DNA from: a virus
DNA: 37,673 nucleotides
Direction: 5' to 3' (one strand)
Virus record (IMG/VR): IMGVR_UViG_3300048927_000734
Span: 1 to 37,673 of that record
The stretch's first letter is position 1, and every line of letters begins with the position of its first letter. This document shows positions 4,735 through 35,807 of the stretch, one piece after another. The translations under genes were made by a program, and so were the position numbers. The notes beneath the pieces were generated by a model. It saw nothing but the letters and a program-made list of their open reading frames with translations, made no database searches and was not told where the DNA came from.

Positions 4735-5604
4735 ATGATGGCGACGGTTGCATCAGTATCGCGCTGCCTTAAATGCGAAACGGAAGTCCCCTATGCGGCC
4801 AGAGAATGTGTCGGGTGTGGGCAGGATGTTGGATTTCCTAACGTTCGCGCAGCAAACCAGCGTGCAGAGATCGAGGCGTTGCGCGATCGCGTGCGATACG
4901 CGCAGGTCGCAGCCGATGAACGGGGATGTGCCGCCGAACTTGAAGAGTTCGGGACGGCTGCCTCCAACTCGGACGCCGTGTTAGTCAGGCATCTAAGCGT
5001 CATCGATTATTTCTTTTCAAACGAGCAAGCTGCCATGGTGTCCTACTACAAAATGGTACGGGCTGGCATGAGGTTGCCCGAGAATAATGACTGGGATGCG
5101 AACCGTGGCCGCATCGACGGTACGATTAACCCCCATGAAGTACACGAACATATTCAGTATGCGGCGCTTTCTTTGAATGGCCGGGGCGTGTCATGGTACG
5201 GCGATTATGCAGTGACGTTGCGCGAAAAGATGATTGAGGCGCGCGCAACGGTGTTTGAGGAGAATCCGTTCACCTTCTGTAACAAGCATCCGGTCCCGCC
5301 CACTGGCTCGGTTCCGCCGGGCTTTCGCGCCAACTGGGCGCGTCGCGGCGAACTCGCCATGGCGAAGCTTCATCCACGAATCCAGCCGGGGACAAAGGCG
5401 TCAGATTTTCCGGCGATTCTCGTCGAGCAAGGCGAAAAATCAGCTGATAGTGATTTTATCGAAGTGCATATATATGGCGCGATTCACGCGCGTGCGGTCG
5501 AGCGCGTGATCGGACCCGAACCGGTCCGCCGCGCCGACCGCGCCATTTGGAAGCGCGTCAAGCGTGCATTGATCACGATTGGCGCAGAGATCGAAGAGGC
5601 TTGA
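4735..5604 (+). CDS. Zinc-ribbon protein of a two-gene cargo cassette, possible ART-like C-terminal domain
   Basis: 289 aa. The N-terminus is a zinc ribbon (C11-x2-C14-x10-C25-x2-C28). A coiled-coil-like stretch follows (about 40-72), then an alpha/beta domain (about 85-262) with distinctive motifs: INPHEVHEHIQYAALSL, GVSWYGDYAVTLRE (YG at 155-156), ARATVFEENPF and DFIEVHIYG (241-248). The pattern of a YG strand, an R-T-F strand and a final acidic strand before HxYG recalls DUF3626-like or ADP-ribosyltransferase-type folds. I could not confirm this, so treat it as a hypothesis. Its TGA is followed immediately by the ATG of the TPR gene, so the two are co-translated. Base composition is less GC-rich than the late genes, suggesting recent acquisition. 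The start could equally be the ATG at 4738. Confidence 0.75.
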   Translation: MMATVASVSRCLKCETEVPYAARECVGCGQDVGFPNVRAANQRAEIEALRDRVRYAQVAADERGCAAELEEFGTAASNSDAVLVRHLSVIDYFFSNEQAAMVSYYKMVRAGMRLPENNDWDANRGRIDGTINPHEVHEHIQYAALSLNGRGVSWYGDYAVTLREKMIEARATVFEENPFTFCNKHPVPPTGSVPPGFRANWARRGELAMAKLHPRIQPGTKASDFPAILVEQGEKSADSDFIEVHIYGAIHARAVERVIGPEPVRRADRAIWKRVKRALITIGAEIEEA

Positions 5605-8055
5605 ATGCAGGTTGTCGCATCTGGCCAAGCTGGATTGTTCGCGATCCAGAATGCGCACGGCTTCACCATCAAGCGGCTAGACAACGGCGCGACCCATCAG
5701 AGTAGCGCGGGCGAGTTGGCTTATTATTTTGCAGGCTGCAACGATGTCACCGCGTTCACCGCAAAAAACGAACGCGAAGCGGAAGCCGCCGCCGAGGCGG
5801 CGTGGGCTGCTGACCGTGCAGTTCGTTTGTTCGTGATGTTGCTCGACCCGCAGGAGGAGCCGGGCGATCTCGCGGAGGTCGGCGAGGCACTCGACGAACT
5901 GCTCGATCTCGAAGGGACTACGGCGCGGGTTGAAAGGCAGATTTACTCCGCCCCGCTACCGCAGCCGATCGACTTTCACGCCATAGCGAAGGCACTTGAG
6001 ACTGCGCCCAAGTCTAAGGATCTGCTTGAGCGCTTCCTAGGCCTGCAATCCACAATCGCCCGAGTCAGAAACGAGTTCGACCTTATCGATGAAAGCGTCT
6101 TCGGCGACGCGCGCCGAAAGCGTGAGTTTTTCGAAGAGGCAATCGATCGGGGTAGCGTGCGTGCCCTAGTCATCGCCGCGAACACGGCTCATGTAGATAA
6201 AGCGTTGTTCCAACTCTATTCTGATCTCAAAGGGCTAGATAATCACCGGGTCATTATTCAGGCCTGGACGCAACCTTTCGCTCGCGTGCACCACAAATTC
6301 GAGCTGCGAGCTGAGCCGGAAGAACTTCATCGCGCCGCCACACCAACGAGCCCCGTCGGTGGCCGACAGGCTTACGAACGCGCACTTCAACAGCAGGTCG
6401 CGATCGTTGAGCGCATCCGCAGCGCCGATTTCGACACTGCACGGCGATTTACCCGCGACCTAATCATCGACCAACGGAACACGGGCTCATCGGAGCATCT
6501 AGCGAAATCGCTGACAAATCTGAGCCAGAAGGCCAAAGATCTAAACGTACTAGAGCTCGCTTTAGAATGGGCGACAGAGGCGGTCGAGGTTAAAGGCGAC
6601 GACGGGATAGCGCATGCTCAGTTGGCCGATTTGCTCATGCAAGTCGGCCGCTACGTCGAGGCGTCACATAGCCTAGACCTTGCCCAAACCTATGGGGAGG
6701 CTGGATTCGCAGAATCGGGGCGTGCACGGATGCTGCGCTACCAAGGGCATTACGCTGAGGCCCTTGCGGCATACCGGGAAGCGGTCAACCATTACGGGGA
6801 GGACTACGAGCAAGCTCACTACAACTTCGCAGGTATCGCCGAGTGCTTACGCGACATGGAACGCCTTGATGAGGCGCTTGCTGCTTATGATGTCGCGATC
6901 TCCCGTTGGCCGTACGAGGCGGTATTGCATGCCGGTCGCGCCGCAACGCTTGTCGAGATGGGGCGCTTCGAGGAAGCTTTGGCGGGATACGACACCGCGA
7001 TAAATCTTGACGATAACAATATTGTTTATCTCAATGGCATCGCTTCGCTCCGTCGCCGAGCCGGAGATTTTGGGACTGCAGAGTCCAGCTTCCGTGCGAT
7101 TGTGGCAGACTACCCATTCGACATATATGCGCGAGGCGGTCTCATCAGCACGCTTCGCGACGTCGGACGCTTCGGTGAAGCGGTCGACGAAGCGCGAACT
7201 CTGGTCGATTATTTTCCGGCGTCGCCGGACGCTCTTTGGATCCTAGCCGACGCGCTGATCGACGCGAAGCAGTTCGACGAGGCAAAAGATGTTCTTGACT
7301 CTGCAGTTAAGGACAATCGTCACAGCGAAGGTCTGCGTGCCGGCTTAGCCCGGATTGAGAAAGCTCGGGGGCGCTATGCCGCCGCGCTCGCCCTCTATGA
7401 CGAAGCTGCCCGGGATTTTCCGTCAAACCAATGGTTCCAGCTCGGACGTGCGGGCATGTTGCGCCGTCTTGGCAATGTCGACGAAGCATTACGCATCTAC
7501 GAGCGCGCCTTTCAACGGCACCCTCATCGCCTGAATCTGAAAAATGCGATGGCTAGTATTTTCATTCATCAGAAGCATTTCGATGAAGCGCTGCCGATGC
7601 TGACGATCGACAACCCAAGAACCACTCACGAATGGCGCAACTTCGTCCTCCGTGGCATGCTAGATAGCGAAACCGGCTTCACTGATGAGGCGCGAGAACG
7701 TTTTGAATGGGGTATCAAACGCTGCCCATTTCGACGTGAGTCGCGAATGCTTCGCGCAGCGCTAAGCAACATACAATTGCGATCGGGCGCCGCAGATCAG
7801 GCGGTCGAAACGACGAAGGATTGCGCTGACGATGTGACCGAATTGCTACGGTTCCACGCCAATGCAATGCAAGGCCACGAGGGGGTTGCTCGAGATCTTT
7901 ATCTACTTCTGAAAGAAAGCTTCTTACCCGAACCTTATCATGAGCTCCGGGATGAGATCGCACGCTACTATAATGTTGTACCGTTTCCTGCTCGTCATGA
8001 TAGGAGTTGGATTCTAGAGCGGGAATCGGACGTACTTCTGCTCGAGGCCGCCTAA
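5605..8055 (+). CDS. Large TPR-repeat protein, partner of the zinc-ribbon protein
   Basis: 816 aa. Residues 1-270 form a unique N-terminal domain (starting QAGLFAIQNAHGFTIKRLDNG, then acidic helices) with no motif I recognise. From about 300 to 740 there is an array of tetratricopeptide repeats, with repeated units such as GRYVEASHSLDLAQ, GHYAEALAAYREAV, ERLDEALAAYDVAI, GRFEEALAGYDTAI, GRYAAALALYDEAA and GNVDEALRIYERAF. The C-terminus (740-816) is not repetitive. No signal peptide or membrane segment, so cytoplasmic. The ATG abuts the stop of the zinc-ribbon gene, implying a fixed-stoichiometry pair. TPR arrays serve as sensor or scaffold in many phage-defence systems. With its position next to the repressor in the lysogeny-expressed strand, a prophage-encoded defence or exclusion role is plausible but unproven. 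Confidence 0.85.
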   Translation: MQVVASGQAGLFAIQNAHGFTIKRLDNGATHQSSAGELAYYFAGCNDVTAFTAKNEREAEAAAEAAWAADRAVRLFVMLLDPQEEPGDLAEVGEALDELLDLEGTTARVERQIYSAPLPQPIDFHAIAKALETAPKSKDLLERFLGLQSTIARVRNEFDLIDESVFGDARRKREFFEEAIDRGSVRALVIAANTAHVDKALFQLYSDLKGLDNHRVIIQAWTQPFARVHHKFELRAEPEELHRAATPTSPVGGRQAYERALQQQVAIVERIRSADFDTARRFTRDLIIDQRNTGSSEHLAKSLTNLSQKAKDLNVLELALEWATEAVEVKGDDGIAHAQLADLLMQVGRYVEASHSLDLAQTYGEAGFAESGRARMLRYQGHYAEALAAYREAVNHYGEDYEQAHYNFAGIAECLRDMERLDEALAAYDVAISRWPYEAVLHAGRAATLVEMGRFEEALAGYDTAINLDDNNIVYLNGIASLRRRAGDFGTAESSFRAIVADYPFDIYARGGLISTLRDVGRFGEAVDEARTLVDYFPASPDALWILADALIDAKQFDEAKDVLDSAVKDNRHSEGLRAGLARIEKARGRYAAALALYDEAARDFPSNQWFQLGRAGMLRRLGNVDEALRIYERAFQRHPHRLNLKNAMASIFIHQKHFDEALPMLTIDNPRTTHEWRNFVLRGMLDSETGFTDEARERFEWGIKRCPFRRESRMLRAALSNIQLRSGAADQAVETTKDCADDVTELLRFHANAMQGHEGVARDLYLLLKESFLPEPYHELRDEIARYYNVVPFPARHDRSWILERESDVLLLEAA

Positions 8056-14480: not shown

Positions 14481-14852
14481 CTAAGCGGTAACGGTGAGGC
14501 CGCTGCGCGAGGCGAGCGGCACGGTGAGGCGGGTGCGGGAAACAGGGCGGGGCTGATCGGTGCGGATGCCGTCGATGATGACGATGGCCTTGCCCGGCTC
14601 GGGCTGCTCCAGGGCGACGCGGGTCACCCGAATGCGGGGCTCCCAGCGCTTGAGCGCCAGCGCCGTCGCGGCGAAGATCCGGATGGGCAGCAGCGCGTTG
14701 ACCGGCTGGTCGATCAGCTCGGGCAGCAGCGAGCCGAAGTCGCGGCGGGCAACGCGCGTGCCGATCGGCGTCGAGAGGATGCGGCCGACCGACTGCGCCA
14801 GGTGCGCTTCGCCTTCGAGCGGCTTGCCGGTGGTGGCGTCCATGCCCCTCAT
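14481..14852 (-). CDS. W: Baseplate assembly protein W (gp25-like)
   Basis: 123 aa. The gp25/W wedge motif is clear: LAQSVGRILSTPIGTRVARRDFGSLLPELIDQP, with the E-P-R-I core in KRWEPRIRVTRV. It nucleates wedge assembly and sheath polymerisation. The ATG at 14852 overlaps the V stop as ATGA; ATG 14843 is an alternative. Confidence 0.94.
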   Translation of the reverse strand: MRGMDATTGKPLEGEAHLAQSVGRILSTPIGTRVARRDFGSLLPELIDQPVNALLPIRIFAATALALKRWEPRIRVTRVALEQPEPGKAIVIIDGIRTDQPRPVSRTRLTVPLASRSGLTVTA

Positions 14853-15736: not shown

Positions 15737-17384
15737 TCAGAAGCCGATGGCGTGCCAGTCGATGCCGTCGATCTGGTTGATCGAGGTGGAAGCGGCCGTG
15801 TACTGGACCATCAGCGTGCAGCCGCCGTTCGACTTGTCGATGCGCTGGATCGTGATGTCGTAGCGGTTGTTTCCGCTGGTGTTCACGGCCGTGGGTATGA
15901 TGTTGATCGAGTCCGGGAAGGTGAAGCCTACGGGGAAGTTGACCACCACCGGGCCTTCGCCGAACGGTCCCCAGACCGTGCCCCATTGTTCGATCACGCC
16001 GTTCGCGCGTCTCTCCCACCAGCCACGCTCATTCGATCCCACCGGGCTATCCGACTTCAGCACGAAGTCGGAGGCATGGCGCCCGTCGAGCAGATCCGCG
16101 TCCAAGCCGGAGCCCGAGCCATCGTTGCTCGCGTCCCACACGACCGCGGGGCCTCGGCTGAACCCGCCTGTCGCCTCGAAGAGGCCGAACCACCTGGCGT
16201 GATAGTCGGGCAGGAACTGGAACACGCCCCATTCGGCGGAGATGCTGGCGTCCGTCACCTGGAAATAGGCGACGCCTGATATCGGATTGCCGCGCAGGCG
16301 GATGCCGCCGCTCGTCTGGAAGTTCGGCGTGAGCGCGCTGATCGAGCCGTCGAAGTCCGTGCCAGCCTTGTTCGCGGGGGTGTACCCAAGGCGCCCCACG
16401 ACATCGGCGTAGTAGTTGCCTTCCTTCCCATCGAGCAGGTCCGCGTCGAGGCCCGAGCCGGAGCCATCATTCGACGCATCCCATACCCGCGCGCCGTTCC
16501 GGCTGAATTCACCCGTCGCCTCGAAGGTGCCGAGCCATTTCGCATGATAGCCAGGCGCAAACTGGAACACGCCCCATTGCGCGGTAAGATCGGCGTTGGT
16601 GATCTGGAAATAGGCCAGACCGGACTCAGCATTGCCGCGAAGCTTGATGCCGCCGCTCGTTCCATCATTGGGGGTTTGGGCGCTGATCAGACCGTCGAAG
16701 TCCTGCCCCGCCTTGTTGGCGGGCGTGTAGCCCAGGCGGCCGATGACATCGGCGTAATAAGCGCCCTGGCGCCCATCGAGCAGATCGGCGTCGAGGCCCG
16801 AGCCGGCGCCGTCGTTGCTGGCGCCAGATATCGCTGCCCCAAGCGGCAAAGCGCGCGGTGAGGGCGAAGCTAAGCCCCTTGGGTGTGATGGTGCGGCGAT
16901 CGTCGGTGCCGGCGCTGGTCTCCGCATCGGTCGCCAGCTCGGCGACGCCAGCCGTTTCGGTGGTCGCGGGCGGGTTGAGGAAGTCCGCGGACCCGAAGGT
17001 GATGTTGGTGGCGGCGATATCCGCGAAGCGCACGTCGAGCGCCAGCAGCAGCATGGCCTGGGCGGATTTCTCGACCAGCACGTCGCTCTGCCCATAAGCG
17101 GCGAACAGCGTGCCGTCAGAGAGGTAGAGCGCAATCGATCGCACGGCATATTGCGCGTTCGTCTCGTCGCGCACGGTGACGTGGATGGTGTCGGCCGCGA
17201 CGGCGTCGCCCGCGATCGTGGTGATCCGCTTGATCTCGCCGGGCAAAGCGTTGGTGGCGGCAGTAGGCGTGGTGGCGGTCGCGGACACGCCGACCGACGC
17301 GATGCGCACCGCATTGGTGCCATCCTTGGCGGCGTTGACGATCGCGGCGCGGCCCGCGTTGGTGACGGTGATGGTGAACGACAT
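15737..17384 (-). pseudogene. H: Tail fibre protein H, interrupted by a frameshift near 16823
   Basis: The N-terminal part (17384 to about 16827) is P2 gpH/phage tail-collar-like: FTITVTNAGRAAIVNAAKDGTNAV, YALRSIALYL-type strands, then ATDAETSAGTDDRRTITPKGLSFALTARFAAW. The remainder, to 15737, continues in another frame. It contains two full ~115-aa repeats (ASNDGSGSGLDADLLDG...GRLGYTPANKAG...WGVFQF...FEATG.FSR) plus a partial third, then a distinct C-terminal receptor-type domain with YDITIQRIDKSNGGCTLMVQY. At 16820-16827 the DNA reads ATCTGG-C-GCCAGCAAC, whereas the other repeats predict ATCTGG-GAC-GCCAGCAAC. Two bases are missing, so translation of frame 1 stops at 16665 after 239 residues. 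Without the lesion the fibre would be about 549 aa. Confidence 0.82.
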
Positions 17385-28850: not shown

Positions 28851-29909
28851 TCAGACCTTCGGGCCAAGCTTGATGTTCTCGACCAGGGCGGCCTTGCCGT
28901 ATTCCTCGACCACGAAGCCGTCGTTGACGCTCTCGTAGTTGGCGATCTGGTCGTAGGCCGATTCCTCGACGATGTTGCGGCGCGCCGAACCCTTCTGCTG
29001 ATAGTAGGACAGGTTGCTCAGGCTGGTGACCATCAGCGCATTGGCCGGGAAGTTCGGCACCTGCATGGTCGGCTTGCCGCCGAGCTGGCGGCTCGACAGG
29101 ATCACGTCGCGCGCGACGATCTCGGTCGCCGTGTTGCCGGCCTCGCTCACGATCTTGAAATACTTCTCGTGAACAAGGTCGCTGCCGACGATCACCACCA
29201 GGTCAGTCGCACCGCGGAACTGCTCGTGCAGCAGGTTGTGGACGACGTCGAAGACGAGAGCGTCGAGGTTCTCATAGTCGGCGTCCCCGGTATCCGAGAC
29301 GTAGACCTTGAGCCCATCCTTGCTGCCGTGCGACATCACGCGCTGAGGCGCATAGGTCCGCATCTTGTAGAGCCAACCATAGTTGACGTCCTGCAGCAGC
29401 GGATAGGCGACGCGGTCGGTCTGCGGCTTGGCGTCCACACCGTTGAAGCCGATCGTGATGATGTCCTGCGCCTTCTGCACCAGCACGGCATCGCGGCAGA
29501 GCTGCTGGAATTCCGGGCGATGCGCCCAGGCGTCGAGCAGTGCGTAGGGCCACGCATAGTCGTAGTCGGTCTTCTTGCAGATATACTGATCGATGGCGTC
29601 GCTACCGAACGGGCTGGTCGGGCGGCGGCGGTTGCCGGGGACCGACAGGTCGGTGCGGCTTGCGAGCGAGCGGGTTACACCAACGCCGACGCGGTCGCCC
29701 ATCTGCTCGACCACCGAAATCACGTTGATCCGCGAAAGAAAATCGCTGGTGGTCTGCAGCTTGGCGAGCAGCTTCTGCTCGATCGCGGGGGCAACCGCAA
29801 ACTTCTTGATCTCGGTAGAGCCGTTCAGGAAGAAATTGCCGTCCAGGTTGTTCAGCTTGGCGAGCTGCCCAAGGTACGAATTGAACAGCACGCGGGTCTG
29901 ATTCTGCAT
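28851..29909 (-). CDS. N: Major capsid protein N
   Basis: 352 aa, the usual length for P2 family gpN. It has QTRVLFNSYLGQLAKLN at the N-terminus, TDLSVPGNRRRPT, YAWPYALLDAWAHRPEFQQL, ITIGFNGVDAKPQTDR and SYYQQKGSARRNIVEE. These motifs are highly characteristic. The ATG has GGAG upstream in good spacing. It is processed by the O protease in P2. Confidence 0.96.
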   Translation of the reverse strand: MQNQTRVLFNSYLGQLAKLNNLDGNFFLNGSTEIKKFAVAPAIEQKLLAKLQTTSDFLSRINVISVVEQMGDRVGVGVTRSLASRTDLSVPGNRRRPTSPFGSDAIDQYICKKTDYDYAWPYALLDAWAHRPEFQQLCRDAVLVQKAQDIITIGFNGVDAKPQTDRVAYPLLQDVNYGWLYKMRTYAPQRVMSHGSKDGLKVYVSDTGDADYENLDALVFDVVHNLLHEQFRGATDLVVIVGSDLVHEKYFKIVSEAGNTATEIVARDVILSSRQLGGKPTMQVPNFPANALMVTSLSNLSYYQQKGSARRNIVEESAYDQIANYESVNDGFVVEEYGKAALVENIKLGPKV

Positions 29910-29967
29910 GGAAAGTGCTCCGGGGTGCGGGGGAGGGGCTCGGGCGGTGGGGTGAGGTTGCGGGCGA

Positions 29968-30231
29968 TCAGCAGTCGGTGAGGTGCTGGCCGGCGCCGCC
30001 GCTCGCCGGCGGGCGGCTGAACCCGGCGGGCGTGGTTTCGAGCTGGCCCTTCATGGTCGCCATCTCGGTACGAACTTCGCTGACCGCATCGAGGGCCGGC
30101 TTCACCGCCGCCGCGACTGCATCGCCCATCGCCTTGGTGAACGCGGCGAAGTCCATGTTGTCATTCGCGGGCGCGGGCGCGGGCGAAGGGGCCGGTGCCG
30201 GCGGGGGCGTGCCGGGCTCGTCGGTGGTGCG
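29968..30231 (-). CDS. O: C-terminal (scaffold) part of capsid protein O, downstream of an in-frame amber codon
   Basis: In the same frame as the O protein, codons continue without another stop from 30231 to TGA at 29968. A flexible linker follows the amber codon (RTTDEPGTPPPAPAPSPAPAP), then a helical segment FAAFTKAMGDAVAAAVKPAL... EVRTEMATMKGQLETTP. That is the usual C-terminal scaffold domain of P2-like gpO. An internal ATG at 30156 could start a 62-aa product. The segment is probably expressed by suppression or readthrough of the TAG, by internal initiation, or not at all. Confidence 0.75.
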   Translation of the reverse strand, partial: RTTDEPGTPPPAPAPSPAPAPANDNMDFAAFTKAMGDAVAAAVKPALDAVSEVRTEMATMKGQLETTPAGFSRPPASGGAGQHLTDC

Positions 30232-30789
30232 CTAGAACATGTCGGCGAGCTTCGAGAAGCCGGCGACGATCGCATCAGTGACCCCTGCCGTGCCCTGCTC
30301 GAATTCGATCGCGACGGCCTGATCCGAGGCGCTGAAAATGGTGCCCGGCGCGGTGCGCGAGAACTGCAGCTTCTGGGTAGCGATCGAGGCGGGGGTATCG
30401 GTGAAGGCGAGGCCGACCAGGCCAACCTTCCCGCTGCCGGCATAGTCGGGGGTCAGCTCGACGGACGGAAACGGCTTCTGGCCAGCGGCCGAGAGCTTCA
30501 CCAGCTGATCGTTGCCCTCGACCTGCACATAGAGTGCGCGGCGCTTCTCGGTCTTGCCGGCGATCGAGATCTCATCGTCCTGCGCCTTGACGGCGGCGAC
30601 GTCGCCATAGCCGTTGAAGGGCGGTTCGGGGCTGTAGCCGGCGATATGTTCGATATTGATGCGCGGCGAATAGGTGTCGCGGTTGAAGGTCGCGACCACG
30701 TCGTCGATCATCTCGTCGGTGATGGTGCGGCCGTCGCTGATCGTCTGGCCGGCGACGAAGGCGCGGAAGAACTTGGAGAGTTTGGCCAT
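30232..30789 (-). CDS. O: Capsid protease/scaffold protein O, N-terminal part ending at amber TAG
   Basis: 185 aa. AKLSKFFRAFVAGQTISDGRTITDEMIDDVVATFNRDTYSPRINIEHIAGYSP is diagnostic for P2 gpO. The serine-protease residues known from P2 (D19, H48, S107) correspond to D19, H48 and S109 (FPSVEL) here, so the protease half is intact. P2 gpO is about 284 aa; here translation should stop at a TAG (complement of CTA at 30232-30234) before the scaffold domain. The frame continues open to 29968. Divergent from P, with a late operator between. Confidence 0.9.
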   Translation of the reverse strand: MAKLSKFFRAFVAGQTISDGRTITDEMIDDVVATFNRDTYSPRINIEHIAGYSPEPPFNGYGDVAAVKAQDDEISIAGKTEKRRALYVQVEGNDQLVKLSAAGQKPFPSVELTPDYAGSGKVGLVGLAFTDTPASIATQKLQFSRTAPGTIFSASDQAVAIEFEQGTAGVTDAIVAGFSKLADMF

Positions 30790-30878
30790 GGCGGTGCTGG
30801 TCCCTGCGTGATCGAGCCGAGGCGGCGTTTGACCAGGCGAACAGGGACCGGATTGGCATCTCTTCTCAAGCGAGCGCC

Positions 30879-30902
30879 CTTGTGAAATGCCCGTTTCACA
30901 AG
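30879..30902. promoter_or_regulatory. Late-promoter operator dyad between O and P
   Basis: CTTGTGAAA-N6-TTTCACAAG in the 161-bp divergent region. Its centre is about 60 bases upstream of the P start and about 101 upstream of the O start. It has the same arms as the V and J sites, and extends to CCCTTGTGAAA / TTTCACAAGGGG here. One dyad appears to serve both directions, whereas P2 uses separate P and O promoters. Confidence 0.75.
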
Positions 30903-30950
30903 GGGCGGCGCTCAGTGAGGGGGCTCAGGCATGGCTAGGTTCGGGGCGCC

Positions 30951-33170
30951 ATGCATCCCGCCGACGAACCTTTGCCAGCATCGACGATGCCGATCCCCGT
31001 GGATGCGCGGCGGAAGGCGCGCAGCCTGTACTGGCGCTATTGGACGATCACCCAGATCGCCGAGGAGCTGGCGCTTTCGCGCGCGACGGTGGAGTCCTGG
31101 CGGCAGCGCGATCGGTGGGATGATGCGCCCGCGCTCACCAAGATCGAGGACGCGATCGAGGCCCGCATCGTCGGGCTGGTCGACAAGGACAAGAAGACCC
31201 CCGGCGACTTCAAGGAAATCGACCTGCTCATGCGCGCGGTCACCACCGCTGCGCGGGTGCGCCGCTATGAGGCGCCGGGCGGACACGAAGGCGATCTGAA
31301 CGAGAAGGTCGGCAATCGCAACGCGGGCGAGAAGAAGAAGGCGAAGACCAACTATTTCACCCGTGAGCAGGTGGAAGAGCTGGAGCGCATCTTCCACGAC
31401 GAGCTGTTCGGCTATCAGCAGGATTGGTGGGACGCGCGCGACCAGCGCACCCGCATGATCCTGAAATCGCGCCAGATCGGCGCGACCTGGTATTTCGCCC
31501 GCGAGGCGCTGCTCGACGCCCTGCGCGGGCGCGGCAACATGATCTTCCTCAGCGCCTCGAAGGCGCAGGCCCATATCTTCCGGGGCTACATCATCCAGTT
31601 CGCGGCGCGGGTGGGGGTGAAGCTGCAGGGCGATCCGATCGTGCTCGACGCCGAGACGCTGCCCGAGGGCGAGGATCTGCCGCAGCTGATCTTCCTGGGC
31701 ACCAATGCCCGCACCGCGCAGGGCTATCACGGCAATTTCTACTTCGACGAGTTCTTCTGGACCTATGGCTTCGAGGAGCTGAACAAGGTCGCCAGCGGCA
31801 TGGCGATGCACAAGAAGTGGCGGAAAACCTACTTCTCCACGCCGTCCACGGTCGCGCACCAGGCGCACCCCTATTGGACCGGCGAGCGCCGCAACCGCCG
31901 GGTGAAGAAGGAGAATCGGGTCACTATCGATACCGGACACGGCCGCTTGAAGGCAGGCGCGGTGTGCGAGGACAATATCTGGCGCCAGATCGTCACGATC
32001 GAGGATGCCGAGGCGCGCGGCTGCGACCTGTTCGATCTGGACGAGCTGCGCATCGAATATGCGCCCGACGAATTCGCGAACCTGCTGATGTGCCAGTTCG
32101 TCGACGACAGCCTCTCGGCGTTCAAGTTCAACGAGCTGCAGCGTGCGACCGTCGACACCGTCGTCGATTGGCTCGACGTGCAGCCGCTAGCCTCGCGGCC
32201 TGTCGGCACGCGGGCGGTGTGGGCCGGCTATGATCCGCAGGAAAGTGAGAACGGCGACAATGCCGCGCTGGTTATCGCGCTGCCGCCGGAAGGGCCGGGG
32301 GGCAAGTTCCGGCTGCTGGAGAAGTACCAGCTGCGCGGGCTCGACTACCAGGCACAGGCCGAGTTCATCCGCCAGCGGCTCGCCCGCTACAACTGCACCT
32401 ATCTGGGCATCGACGCCACCGGCATCGGCTCGGCCGTCTACCAGCTGCTCAGCGGCACGGTGCGCGGCTGCACCAAGATCGAATACTCGCTCGAGTCCAA
32501 GGCGCAGATGGTGATGAAGGCGCAGCATAGCTTTGCGCGCGGGCGCATCGAGTTCGACGCGAGCTGGATCGACGTGCAGTCGAGCTTCCTCAGCATCAAG
32601 AAGGCGCTCACCGGCTCGGGGAAGGCGATCACCTTCAAGACCAGCCGCGGCGACGAGAGCATCGGCCACGGCGATCTGGCCTGGGCGGTCATGCACATCC
32701 TCATCAACGAACCACTGGACGGCAGCGCGCGGCCGCAGACGCGCTTGGAGATTATCGATGGCGAAGCGGACTCGAGCGCGGACGATGTCCCGGCAGGAAA
32801 CGGCGGCGGCGTCGTCTGGGGCTTTGATGGCGACGAAGGAGGAGACAAGCTCGAGTGGCCTGGCGTTCAGCTTCGGCGATCCGGAGCCGGTGCTCAACCG
32901 GCGCGAGCTGCTCGACATGGCCGAGTGCTGGCACAATGGCAGATGGTACGAACCGCCGGTGTCGCTCGACGGCCTGGCGCGCGCGTTCCGCGTCTCTCCG
33001 CACCACAGCAGCGCCATCATGCTCAAGCGCAACCTGCTGGTCGCGTCGTTCCAGGCATCGCCGCTGCTCAGCACCGCGGCGTTCGAAGCCATGGCGCAGG
33101 ACTTCCTCGTCTTCGGCAACGGCTATCTGGAGGAGCGCCGCAACGTCCTGGGCGGCGTGCTGCGCTATGA
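30951..33170 (+). CDS. P: Large terminase subunit P (ATPase/nuclease), with extended C-terminus
   Basis: 739 aa as read. An N-terminal HTH (YWTITQIAEELALSRATVESW) precedes the ATPase: Walker A-like SRQIGATW at about 172-179 and Walker B YFDEFFW near 264-270. The nuclease domain carries GYDPQESENGD (about 425) and LGIDATGIG (about 486). This is the P2 gpP layout. P2 gpP is about 590 aa; here about 114 extra residues overlap the portal gene in another frame. They are Arg/Ala/Gln-rich and look like shadow sequence, so the true terminase probably ended near 32800-32850 before losing its stop, or the overlap is genuine. It packages the genome with M. Confidence 0.9.
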   Translation: MHPADEPLPASTMPIPVDARRKARSLYWRYWTITQIAEELALSRATVESWRQRDRWDDAPALTKIEDAIEARIVGLVDKDKKTPGDFKEIDLLMRAVTTAARVRRYEAPGGHEGDLNEKVGNRNAGEKKKAKTNYFTREQVEELERIFHDELFGYQQDWWDARDQRTRMILKSRQIGATWYFAREALLDALRGRGNMIFLSASKAQAHIFRGYIIQFAARVGVKLQGDPIVLDAETLPEGEDLPQLIFLGTNARTAQGYHGNFYFDEFFWTYGFEELNKVASGMAMHKKWRKTYFSTPSTVAHQAHPYWTGERRNRRVKKENRVTIDTGHGRLKAGAVCEDNIWRQIVTIEDAEARGCDLFDLDELRIEYAPDEFANLLMCQFVDDSLSAFKFNELQRATVDTVVDWLDVQPLASRPVGTRAVWAGYDPQESENGDNAALVIALPPEGPGGKFRLLEKYQLRGLDYQAQAEFIRQRLARYNCTYLGIDATGIGSAVYQLLSGTVRGCTKIEYSLESKAQMVMKAQHSFARGRIEFDASWIDVQSSFLSIKKALTGSGKAITFKTSRGDESIGHGDLAWAVMHILINEPLDGSARPQTRLEIIDGEADSSADDVPAGNGGGVVWGFDGDEGGDKLEWPGVQLRRSGAGAQPARAARHGRVLAQWQMVRTAGVARRPGARVPRLSAPQQRHHAQAQPAGRVVPGIAAAQHRGVRSHGAGLPRLRQRLSGGAPQRPGRRAAL

Positions 33171-33825
33171 GCATGCCATCGCCAAATACACCCGGCGCGG
33201 GGTGGAAGCGGGGCGGTTCTTCTATGTCCCCGGCGATCGCGACGAAGTGGAGTTCGCCCCCGGCAGCGTCCAGCAGGTCTGCCAGCCCGACGTGAACCAG
33301 GAGATCTACGGCGTGCCGGAATATCTGAGCGCGCTGCAGTCGGCGCTGCTCAACGAGGCGGCGACGCTGTTCCGCCGCCGCTATTACCTCAACGGCAGCC
33401 ATGCCGGGTATATCCTCTACGCCACCGGCGAGATCGACGAGAAGGACACCACCGCGCTCAAGACCGCGCTCAAGGCGTCGCGCGGGCCCGGCAACTTCCG
33501 GAACCTCTTCGTCCACGCGCCGAACGCGAAAGAGGGCAGCCTCAAGATCCTGCCGATCGCCGAAGTGGGCGCGAAGGACGAGTTCCTGGGCATCAAGAAC
33601 GCGACGCGCGATGACGTGCTCGCCGCGCACCGCGTGCCGCCCCAGCTGCTCGGCATCGTGCCGGCGCAGGGCTCCAGCGGCTTCGGCAACCCGCTCCAGG
33701 CGGTCGACATGTTCTTCGAGCTGGAGATCGCGCCACTGCAGGTGCGGCTGCTGCAGTTCAACGAGCTGGTCGGCCGCGAAGTGATCCGGTTCCGCGAACG
33801 CAAGCTGATTGCTAGCGCTGCATAG
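32827..33825 (+). CDS. Q: Portal protein Q
   Basis: 332 aa from the ATG at 32827 (ATKEETSSSGLAFSFGDPEPVLNRRELLDMAECWHNGRWYEPP), the usual P2 gpQ start. Upstream in-frame ATGs at 32758 and 32785 exist. FLVFGNGYLEERRNVLGGVLRYEHAIAKYTRRGVE, VCQPDVNQEIYGVPEYLSALQSALLNEAATLFRRRYYLNGSHAGYILY and PPQLLGIVPAQGSSGFGNP are diagnostic. It forms the dodecameric portal. Overlaps the terminase reading frame by 344 bases. Confidence 0.95.
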   Translation: MATKEETSSSGLAFSFGDPEPVLNRRELLDMAECWHNGRWYEPPVSLDGLARAFRVSPHHSSAIMLKRNLLVASFQASPLLSTAAFEAMAQDFLVFGNGYLEERRNVLGGVLRYEHAIAKYTRRGVEAGRFFYVPGDRDEVEFAPGSVQQVCQPDVNQEIYGVPEYLSALQSALLNEAATLFRRRYYLNGSHAGYILYATGEIDEKDTTALKTALKASRGPGNFRNLFVHAPNAKEGSLKILPIAEVGAKDEFLGIKNATRDDVLAAHRVPPQLLGIVPAQGSSGFGNPLQAVDMFFELEIAPLQVRLLQFNELVGREVIRFRERKLIASAA

Positions 33826-33923: not shown

Positions 33924-35807
33924 TCAACCCGTATTGCCAGTTATGAAGTTGGTGCCCGAGTAAAATGGGGTCATTGTAGGGCTGGTCGTGATGCTAATGC
34001 CGCCTCGAATCAGTTTTGAGGCAAAGCCACCTGCGATATTGGCGCTATTTATACCGCCGACATCATAGTTGTTTCGGGTATCTGTATTAACGGTAACATT
34101 GATACCGTTGGCGTAAGTCGACGATCCACCAACCGTAGGCTTTATAGTGCAGCCATTTATGGGGCCATAGATCACCACTACATTGTATGTGCTGTTGGAC
34201 CCGCTTGAGTTAAAGGCCGTAAATTCCAGGTGGCATGAGCTGCAGCCCGTCATCGTGCTGACATTATTACCCGAGCCGGACTGGACAATCATGCCTTGCA
34301 GGCGTGCGGCAGTAGTATTCTCTAGTGATATGCAAATAGAACTGGAGTTGTTGAGAATTTGCCCGCCTGTAATTGATACGGGTCCATGACAGCTGTTGAG
34401 CCAGTATCCCGCTCCGGCGCTCCCCGCTGCCATGGCAACATATGGGTCCGCGACGTTTATGGCTGCACTCGCCGCGGCATTCTGAATTACTAGTCCGCCC
34501 GCGTTGCAGGCATCAAGAATGGGATGCTTGATATAAATGTCGCCATTCGTACCGCCGCCCTCGATGAACATTCCTACGTTACAGATTCCGGCTTCAAAAT
34601 CCTCGATGAACAGATCTTGCAATCCGCCGTAAAGGCGCATGCCGAAGGAGTTTGCCCGTTGCAAGCTGCCTTCGTTATTCGTCGCATTTGCTTTAGTAAT
34701 GAAAAGCGATGCGTTGCCTCCAACTGTTCCAATGTTGTAATTGCCATTTACGTCGTAGCCATCCCAAAAATCAGTTCCCGATCCAGATCCAGGGACGTCA
34801 CGAACGGCATAAGTTCGATCTACAACGCATCCCACTAAGCCTGCGAGTTCGTAACCCTTCATTGAGTTTCGCGACTTTATGTTTTTGATCGTGCCTCCGA
34901 TTATAAAAGTGGCACGCAGGCCAACGCAGTTGCTTGAAATGTTCGGCGCAACAGATCTGTCGAGCATCACGTCGGAAACTACGATGCCCAGCGGGAAGTT
35001 GAGAGGCGCCGGTGTAGGGAGGGACGGCGAACCTACCTGAAGGATGTTGGCAGTGGCGCTTGTGCAAATAATTCGGCTTACCCCCGGTATGTTATGAGAA
35101 TCATTGAACGCGTTGAAGCCGTTGCCCACCAGCCTATGATTCGCTGTGGAGTGAATGATGGTATCGCTCGTGTAATACCGTGCGGCTCTGAGCTGCGTCG
35201 TTGGTAGAAGAGCGAGCGCGGCATTTAATGCTGCGACGTTAATGGCGGCAGAGGTCGCACTTTCGGGTATTGCGCCGAACCACTCCGCGAATCCCGTGAC
35301 CTCGTCCCAAACGCGCGCCCAACATCCGGAAGCGCCAGAGGTATCGGTCGCTGGCGGGATATATAGCCCTTGGAGGGGGTCGCTCGATATCAAGGCCGAC
35401 TTGTCGCCGCTGATCCATCGGAAATAGCCGGATCGGCTACCGAGATTTAAGAAGACGGCAGATGTGCCCACAGGAACGGCCTGGAGGGCGGCGATCGACG
35501 ATGGGAAAAGATCGCTCCCTTGGATTTGTGTAGAGATCGGGTCAAAGTCGTAGCCGGTGATCGGGGTGCCAGAGGAATTTCGTACTCGGAAGCGATATTG
35601 CACATATGGTGTAGTGAAAATGGCAGGAAACTTGCCATCACTCGACGCAACAATTGGGTTGCTATGGGGTGTCGTTAAATTACTGTCTTTGTAAACCGTT
35701 GCTGGCGTTGTTGTTCCGCTCAAAAATACGTCCATCAACGCTCCTGGTGATGGTTCGGCGTTCGGCCCAAATGCTGGCGAAAGCGGCAGCGTAATTGGTG
35801 ATGGCAT
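33924..35807 (-). CDS. Tailspike with head-binding-type N-terminus and beta-helix
   Basis: 627 aa from the ATG at 35807, with AGGAAGAG upstream. The N-terminus (FLSGTTTPATVYKDSNLTTPHSNPIVASSDGKFPAIF) matches the head-binding adaptor of P22-type tailspikes. The rest is Gly/Asn/Ser-rich with repeated beta-strand patterns (INVAALNAALALLP..., VGNGFNAFND..., ADPYVAMAAGSAGAGYWLNS..., GQILNNSSSICISLE), typical of a right-handed beta-helix that binds or degrades polysaccharide. Its G+C is visibly lower than the phage genes and it is convergent with Q near the expected cos region, so it was probably acquired separately. Different receptor specificity from H is likely. Confidence 0.85.
   Translation of the reverse strand: MPSPITLPLSPAFGPNAEPSPGALMDVFLSGTTTPATVYKDSNLTTPHSNPIVASSDGKFPAIFTTPYVQYRFRVRNSSGTPITGYDFDPISTQIQGSDLFPSSIAALQAVPVGTSAVFLNLGSRSGYFRWISGDKSALISSDPLQGLYIPPATDTSGASGCWARVWDEVTGFAEWFGAIPESATSAAINVAALNAALALLPTTQLRAARYYTSDTIIHSTANHRLVGNGFNAFNDSHNIPGVSRIICTSATANILQVGSPSLPTPAPLNFPLGIVVSDVMLDRSVAPNISSNCVGLRATFIIGGTIKNIKSRNSMKGYELAGLVGCVVDRTYAVRDVPGSGSGTDFWDGYDVNGNYNIGTVGGNASLFITKANATNNEGSLQRANSFGMRLYGGLQDLFIEDFEAGICNVGMFIEGGGTNGDIYIKHPILDACNAGGLVIQNAAASAAINVADPYVAMAAGSAGAGYWLNSCHGPVSITGGQILNNSSSICISLENTTAARLQGMIVQSGSGNNVSTMTGCSSCHLEFTAFNSSGSNSTYNVVVIYGPINGCTIKPTVGGSSTYANGINVTVNTDTRNNYDVGGINSANIAGGFASKLIRGGISITTSPTMTPFYSGTNFITGNTG

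Follow-up and report, generated by a model that had tools for sequence, protein, structure and literature searches.

A premature amber codon in the gpO gene of a P2-like (pro)phage: probably a recent nonsense mutation

The head protease and scaffold of phage lambda, C and Nu3, are nested, an arrangement in which the two functions can be separate products. For gpO of phage P2, the published description assigns residues 1-141 to the protease, with S107 as a catalytic residue, residues 142-194 to a middle region that may serve the portal, and residues 195-284 to a scaffold without which large procapsids cannot form (PMC7552001). The same source records polar amber mutants of P2 that are relieved by P4 Psu (PMC7552001). 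In-frame stops with dN/dS below 1 are reported to be widespread in bacteria, although the authors of that survey presume that the great majority lack functional recoding and that many are short-lived (Belinky et al. 2021, PMC7918605).

The DNA analyzed here is a virus record of 37,673 bases, referred to in its entirety as the window. It carries a P2-type head and tail gene set that includes an integrase, a GPD-type baseplate hub, a minor tail protein, a sheath, baseplate J, and a Phage_tail_S protein, as well as capsid protein N, gpO, terminase, and portal. The operon context is that of P2, with O followed by the capsid gene N and the terminase gene P divergent, and comprises the following features.

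29968..30789, minus strand: P2-type gpO gene (head maturation protease and scaffold) with one in-frame TAG; full PF05929 profile
30232..30234, minus strand: premature TAG, codon 186 of 273; aligns with P2 gpO residue 191
30235..30789, minus strand: open part of 185 codons, protease domain and middle region; PHROG 73 and PHROG 11933
29971..30231, minus strand: part after the stop, 87 codons; Pro/Ala linker, then a long predicted C-terminal helix (214-251, low confidence); scaffold domain, from its alignment to P2 195-284
30154..30156, minus strand: candidate internal ATG put forward by the first-pass annotation; no Shine-Dalgarno 5' of it, not conserved
28851..29909, minus strand: major capsid protein N, intact, downstream of O; PF05125, 377 bits
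27932..28867, minus strand: gene at the place of P2 M (terminase small subunit), intact; named from position only
30951..33170, plus strand: terminase large subunit (P-like), divergent from O; PF03237, PF17289, PF06056
32827..33825, plus strand: portal (Q-like); PF04860 on 32533-33822

The gpO frame runs for 273 codons from the ATG at 30789 to a TGA at 29970-29968, and its PF05929 match covers profile positions 1-268 of 268 with one TAG inside, the read-through sequence scoring 169.6 bits against a cut-off of 33.6. Both the frame and this match bear out the first-pass annotation, which had reported an in-frame TAG at 30232-30234 followed by 87 further open codons. The 185-codon part matches PHROG 73 (head scaffolding protein) and PHROG 11933 (head maturation protease). 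In an alignment of P2 gpO from NC_001895 (NP_046759.1), the window, and ten relatives, D19, H48, and S109 of the window fell opposite D19, H48, and S107 of P2, and all three were invariant in the 12 aligned sequences; D19 and H48 of P2 we take to be catalytic residues. The locus thus resembles P2 gpO (PF05929) in its full-profile match, its matching catalytic residues, the gene order P/O/N/M, and, by alignment, a C-terminal scaffold segment, but differs in that normal translation ends at the TAG, short of the scaffold. Read with the standard code, the product has 185 residues, and the C-terminal scaffold is absent from the same polypeptide. Judged by its sequence, gpO is therefore a member of PF05929 by descent and a broken one by product. 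The frame beyond the stop is coding by descent: the nearest related locus, L002, is 93% identical across all 273 residues without an indel, and dN/dS for the part beyond the stop is 0.19.

In the alignment, the TAG corresponds to P2 residue 191, four residues ahead of the scaffold and well past the protease, a position that the P2 boundaries mark as the border between middle region and scaffold. It had been described as lying exactly between protease and scaffold; the nearness to the scaffold border stands, but the middle region (142-194) intervenes. The truncated 185-residue product would keep the protease residues and the middle part while losing the scaffold. An AlphaFold2 model of read-through gpO had a mean pLDDT of 51.8, too low for a fold search. 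At this low confidence it placed helices at 170-186 and 214-251, with the TAG at the end of the former and the Pro/Ala linker unstructured between the TAG and the last helix. In the gpO gene of L002, 51 of the 273 codons are one base from a stop, and three of these 51 lie within codons 181-211; the position of a single stop in the linker is mildly unusual (approximately 6%) and not compelling.

No stop was found in gpO at any of 14 related loci (ten in viral contigs and four in genomes), three pairs of which look identical, leaving about 11 independent sequences. The codon aligned with the TAG is a sense codon in 12 of the 14 and a one-codon gap in the other two (L007 and L013, apparently identical). 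L002, 93% identical over 273 residues, differs from the window by one base at this codon. Comparison of the codon among related prophages had been suggested earlier as a check, and its outcome is that the TAG is not maintained. The search was extended to the genus of G002, an uncultured Sphingomonas that holds locus L012, in which 58 gpO matches were present in 52 of 295 genomes, and to a family sample with 34 matches in 31 of 397 genomes. As G002 and G102 occur in both samples with one match each, these amount to 90 matches in 81 Sphingomonas-family genomes. None of the 90 contained an in-frame stop inside the match, a count that sees stops within the matched stretch only and misses frameshifts and lost ends. 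The 342 phage records carrying a similar protein stand outside this count.

Other kinds of damage were present, as reading four of the genomes with partial matches showed. Two of these genes, both in the genus of G002, are damaged: in G131 (L051), gpO has a frameshift within the protease, and in G016 (L052) its 5' part is lost and the first part replaced, so that loss of gpO is an ordinary fate. The gpO frame of G064 is open over nearly its full length; the match in G152 (profile 1-166) lies close to a contig end, and by their coordinates those in G524 and on contig 143 of G487 are contig-end fragments.

Relative to L002, dN/dS was 0.118 before the stop and 0.189 after it, each based on few changes. 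Polarization with five relatives assigned to the window lineage 13 silent and 11 replacement changes before the stop, and six silent and three replacement changes, plus one unassigned replacement, after it. The segment after the stop has about 194 replacement and 67 silent sites, so free drift would be expected to yield approximately three replacements per silent change; only half a replacement per silent change was observed, indicating that this segment was translated for most of that time. Purifying selection is thus still visible beyond the stop, which is probably young, although such constraint would be expected from continued translation as well as from a young stop.

The rest of the genome was compared using 47 open reading frames from the nearest relative's record, picked by G+C at third positions. 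Of these, 32 matched the window, and four of the 32 crossed a stop there: (i) gpO itself, whose matching frame also crosses a stop upstream of the gene's start; (ii) a frame whose two stops (1671 and 1203) both lie 5' of the integrase start in the window (1074); and (iii, iv) two frames, with stops at 14554 and 3825, that face other open frames on the opposite strand and that we judge to be non-genes. The gene at the place of M was 93.6% identical to that of the relative and held no stop, in the order seen in P2. Among the 32 matched frames, gpO is the only one that the comparison marks as clearly interrupted, which argues against general prophage decay. Of the two explanations first offered, a natural way to make both pieces or a lethal mutation in a decaying prophage, the lethal mutation is the better one, except that the prophage is not generally decaying.

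We consider it probable (roughly 0.72) that the TAG arose recently, through a single-base nonsense mutation, and that the P2-like (pro)phage of Sphingomonas-like bacteria that carries it is otherwise intact. Translation would then stop after 185 residues, so that the protease and the middle region are made and the C-terminal scaffold is not. Because the scaffold is required for procapsid assembly in P2, infectious particles would not be expected from this copy alone. The stop may also lower expression of the capsid gene N and the later operon genes by polarity, to which the approximately 320 untranslated bases from the stop to the start of N could add. The stop itself, its absence from the relatives, the otherwise intact frames, and the lack of recoding signals were observed directly; loss of function, polarity, and a recent origin of the stop are what we infer. 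The polar amber mutants of P2 are similar in that an amber codon lies in a gene of a P2-type phage, but they are laboratory mutants, whereas the window is a natural sequence without a known suppressor host. The stops surveyed in bacteria share with this one a constrained remainder of the gene and a probably young stop, although that survey concerns prokaryotic protein-coding genes at large rather than gpO (PMC7918605). Against a young mutation count the stop's place near a real domain border, as for only three of 51 one-step stops; the lack of relaxation after the stop, which fits continued translation too; and the lack of a second sequence copy that would prove the TAG base real. If correct, this reading matters little, being one further case of a prophage gene with a nonsense mutation; it is, however, a useful warning against taking every stop at a domain border for a regulatory one.

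The main rival is a sequencing or assembly error, in which case the true genome would have a sense codon and gpO would be whole. Consistent with such an error, the 37,673 bases show no clear lesion other than this one substitution, and the window comes from a virus-collection record. A search for a second copy of the exact window sequence returned no matches, although records near the window's genome may be excluded from that search. The change is, on the other hand, a substitution rather than an indel, it lies outside any homopolymer, and consensus substitution errors that create a stop are generally rare. We therefore regard an error as unlikely, yet as the alternative most deserving of attention.

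Far less probable is a leaky TAG, at which a suppressor or near-cognate tRNA of the host would yield mostly free protease, with a small amount of full-length gpO. The frame beyond the stop is intact and constrained, and constrained in-frame stops are described as widespread in bacteria (PMC7918605), but the stop was kept in none of the 14 loci or 90 matches, and the 37,673-base window contains no tRNA gene. A stimulatory hairpin was also considered and rejected: the 100 bases 3' of the stop showed no unusual structure (z +0.49; 137 of 200 shuffled sequences folded equally well or better), no better than the same test in L002, whose gene is without the stop (z +0.42). Programmed readthrough is typically accompanied by conservation of the stop and by structure 3' of it, and neither was seen here. 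In the window, L002, L003, and L005 the portal gene ends in TAG, in an identical position or almost so, indicating that this codon does act as a stop in the phage group; a strong suppressor could therefore harm the phage, and an alternative code in which TAG specifies a residue can be dismissed. The first-pass annotation had further suggested that the stop might be a natural way to make both pieces, a proposal that finds no backing in a stop kept in no relative and accompanied by no recoding signal. Slightly more doubtful still is the specific idea that the amber codon at this border sets how much free protease is made relative to full protease-scaffold, with readthrough by a host suppressor or near-cognate tRNA; were readthrough real, this would be a rare case in which a leaky stop controls the supply of a head protease in a DNA phage.

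Least likely of all is a split gene in the style of lambda C/Nu3, in which the TAG would terminate the protease and the ATG at 30156 would open a separate scaffold of 62 residues. This ATG is the first start codon 3' of the TAG, 25 codons on, and its 62-residue frame covers the helix predicted at 214-251. However, no Shine-Dalgarno sequence precedes it, an ATG occupies the aligned column in only three of 14 relatives (L002, L005, and L006), and no sigma-70-like promoter was detected in 29900-31000 by a scan that is blind to other promoter types. The internal start proposed earlier is accordingly rejected, and the window differs from lambda in having neither a ribosome-binding site nor a conserved internal start.

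Several other features of the window were recorded. The terminase frame (30951-33170) overlaps the portal (32827-33825) by about 344 bases in a different frame. It is also long (704-743 aa) in 11 of the 14 relatives, ends near the portal start in L009 and L010 (606 and 615 aa), and runs off the contig in L004. Differences at fourfold sites of the portal were fewer in the overlap than in each of the two later thirds (0.10-0.16 versus 0.15-0.33) for L003, L005, L006, L007, and L012, and were lower in the overlap also for L008, L010, and L014, but not for L009 or L011; L002 was not included in this test. Beside the portal, where the long block of similarity to the record of L002 stops at 33825, a 627-aa frame (33924-35807, minus strand) has no match in Pfam, PHROGs, NCBIfam, or PADLOC. 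Two plus-strand frames at 4735-8055, a stretch unaligned to the nearest relative's record, may possibly be cargo: in the same four collections the first (4735-5604, 289 aa) has no match, and the second (5605-8055, 816 aa) has TPR-type matches only. Finally, a tail-fibre-like gene with repeats lies at 15737-17323 (minus strand), and its segments near 16708-16828 match several places in the relative.
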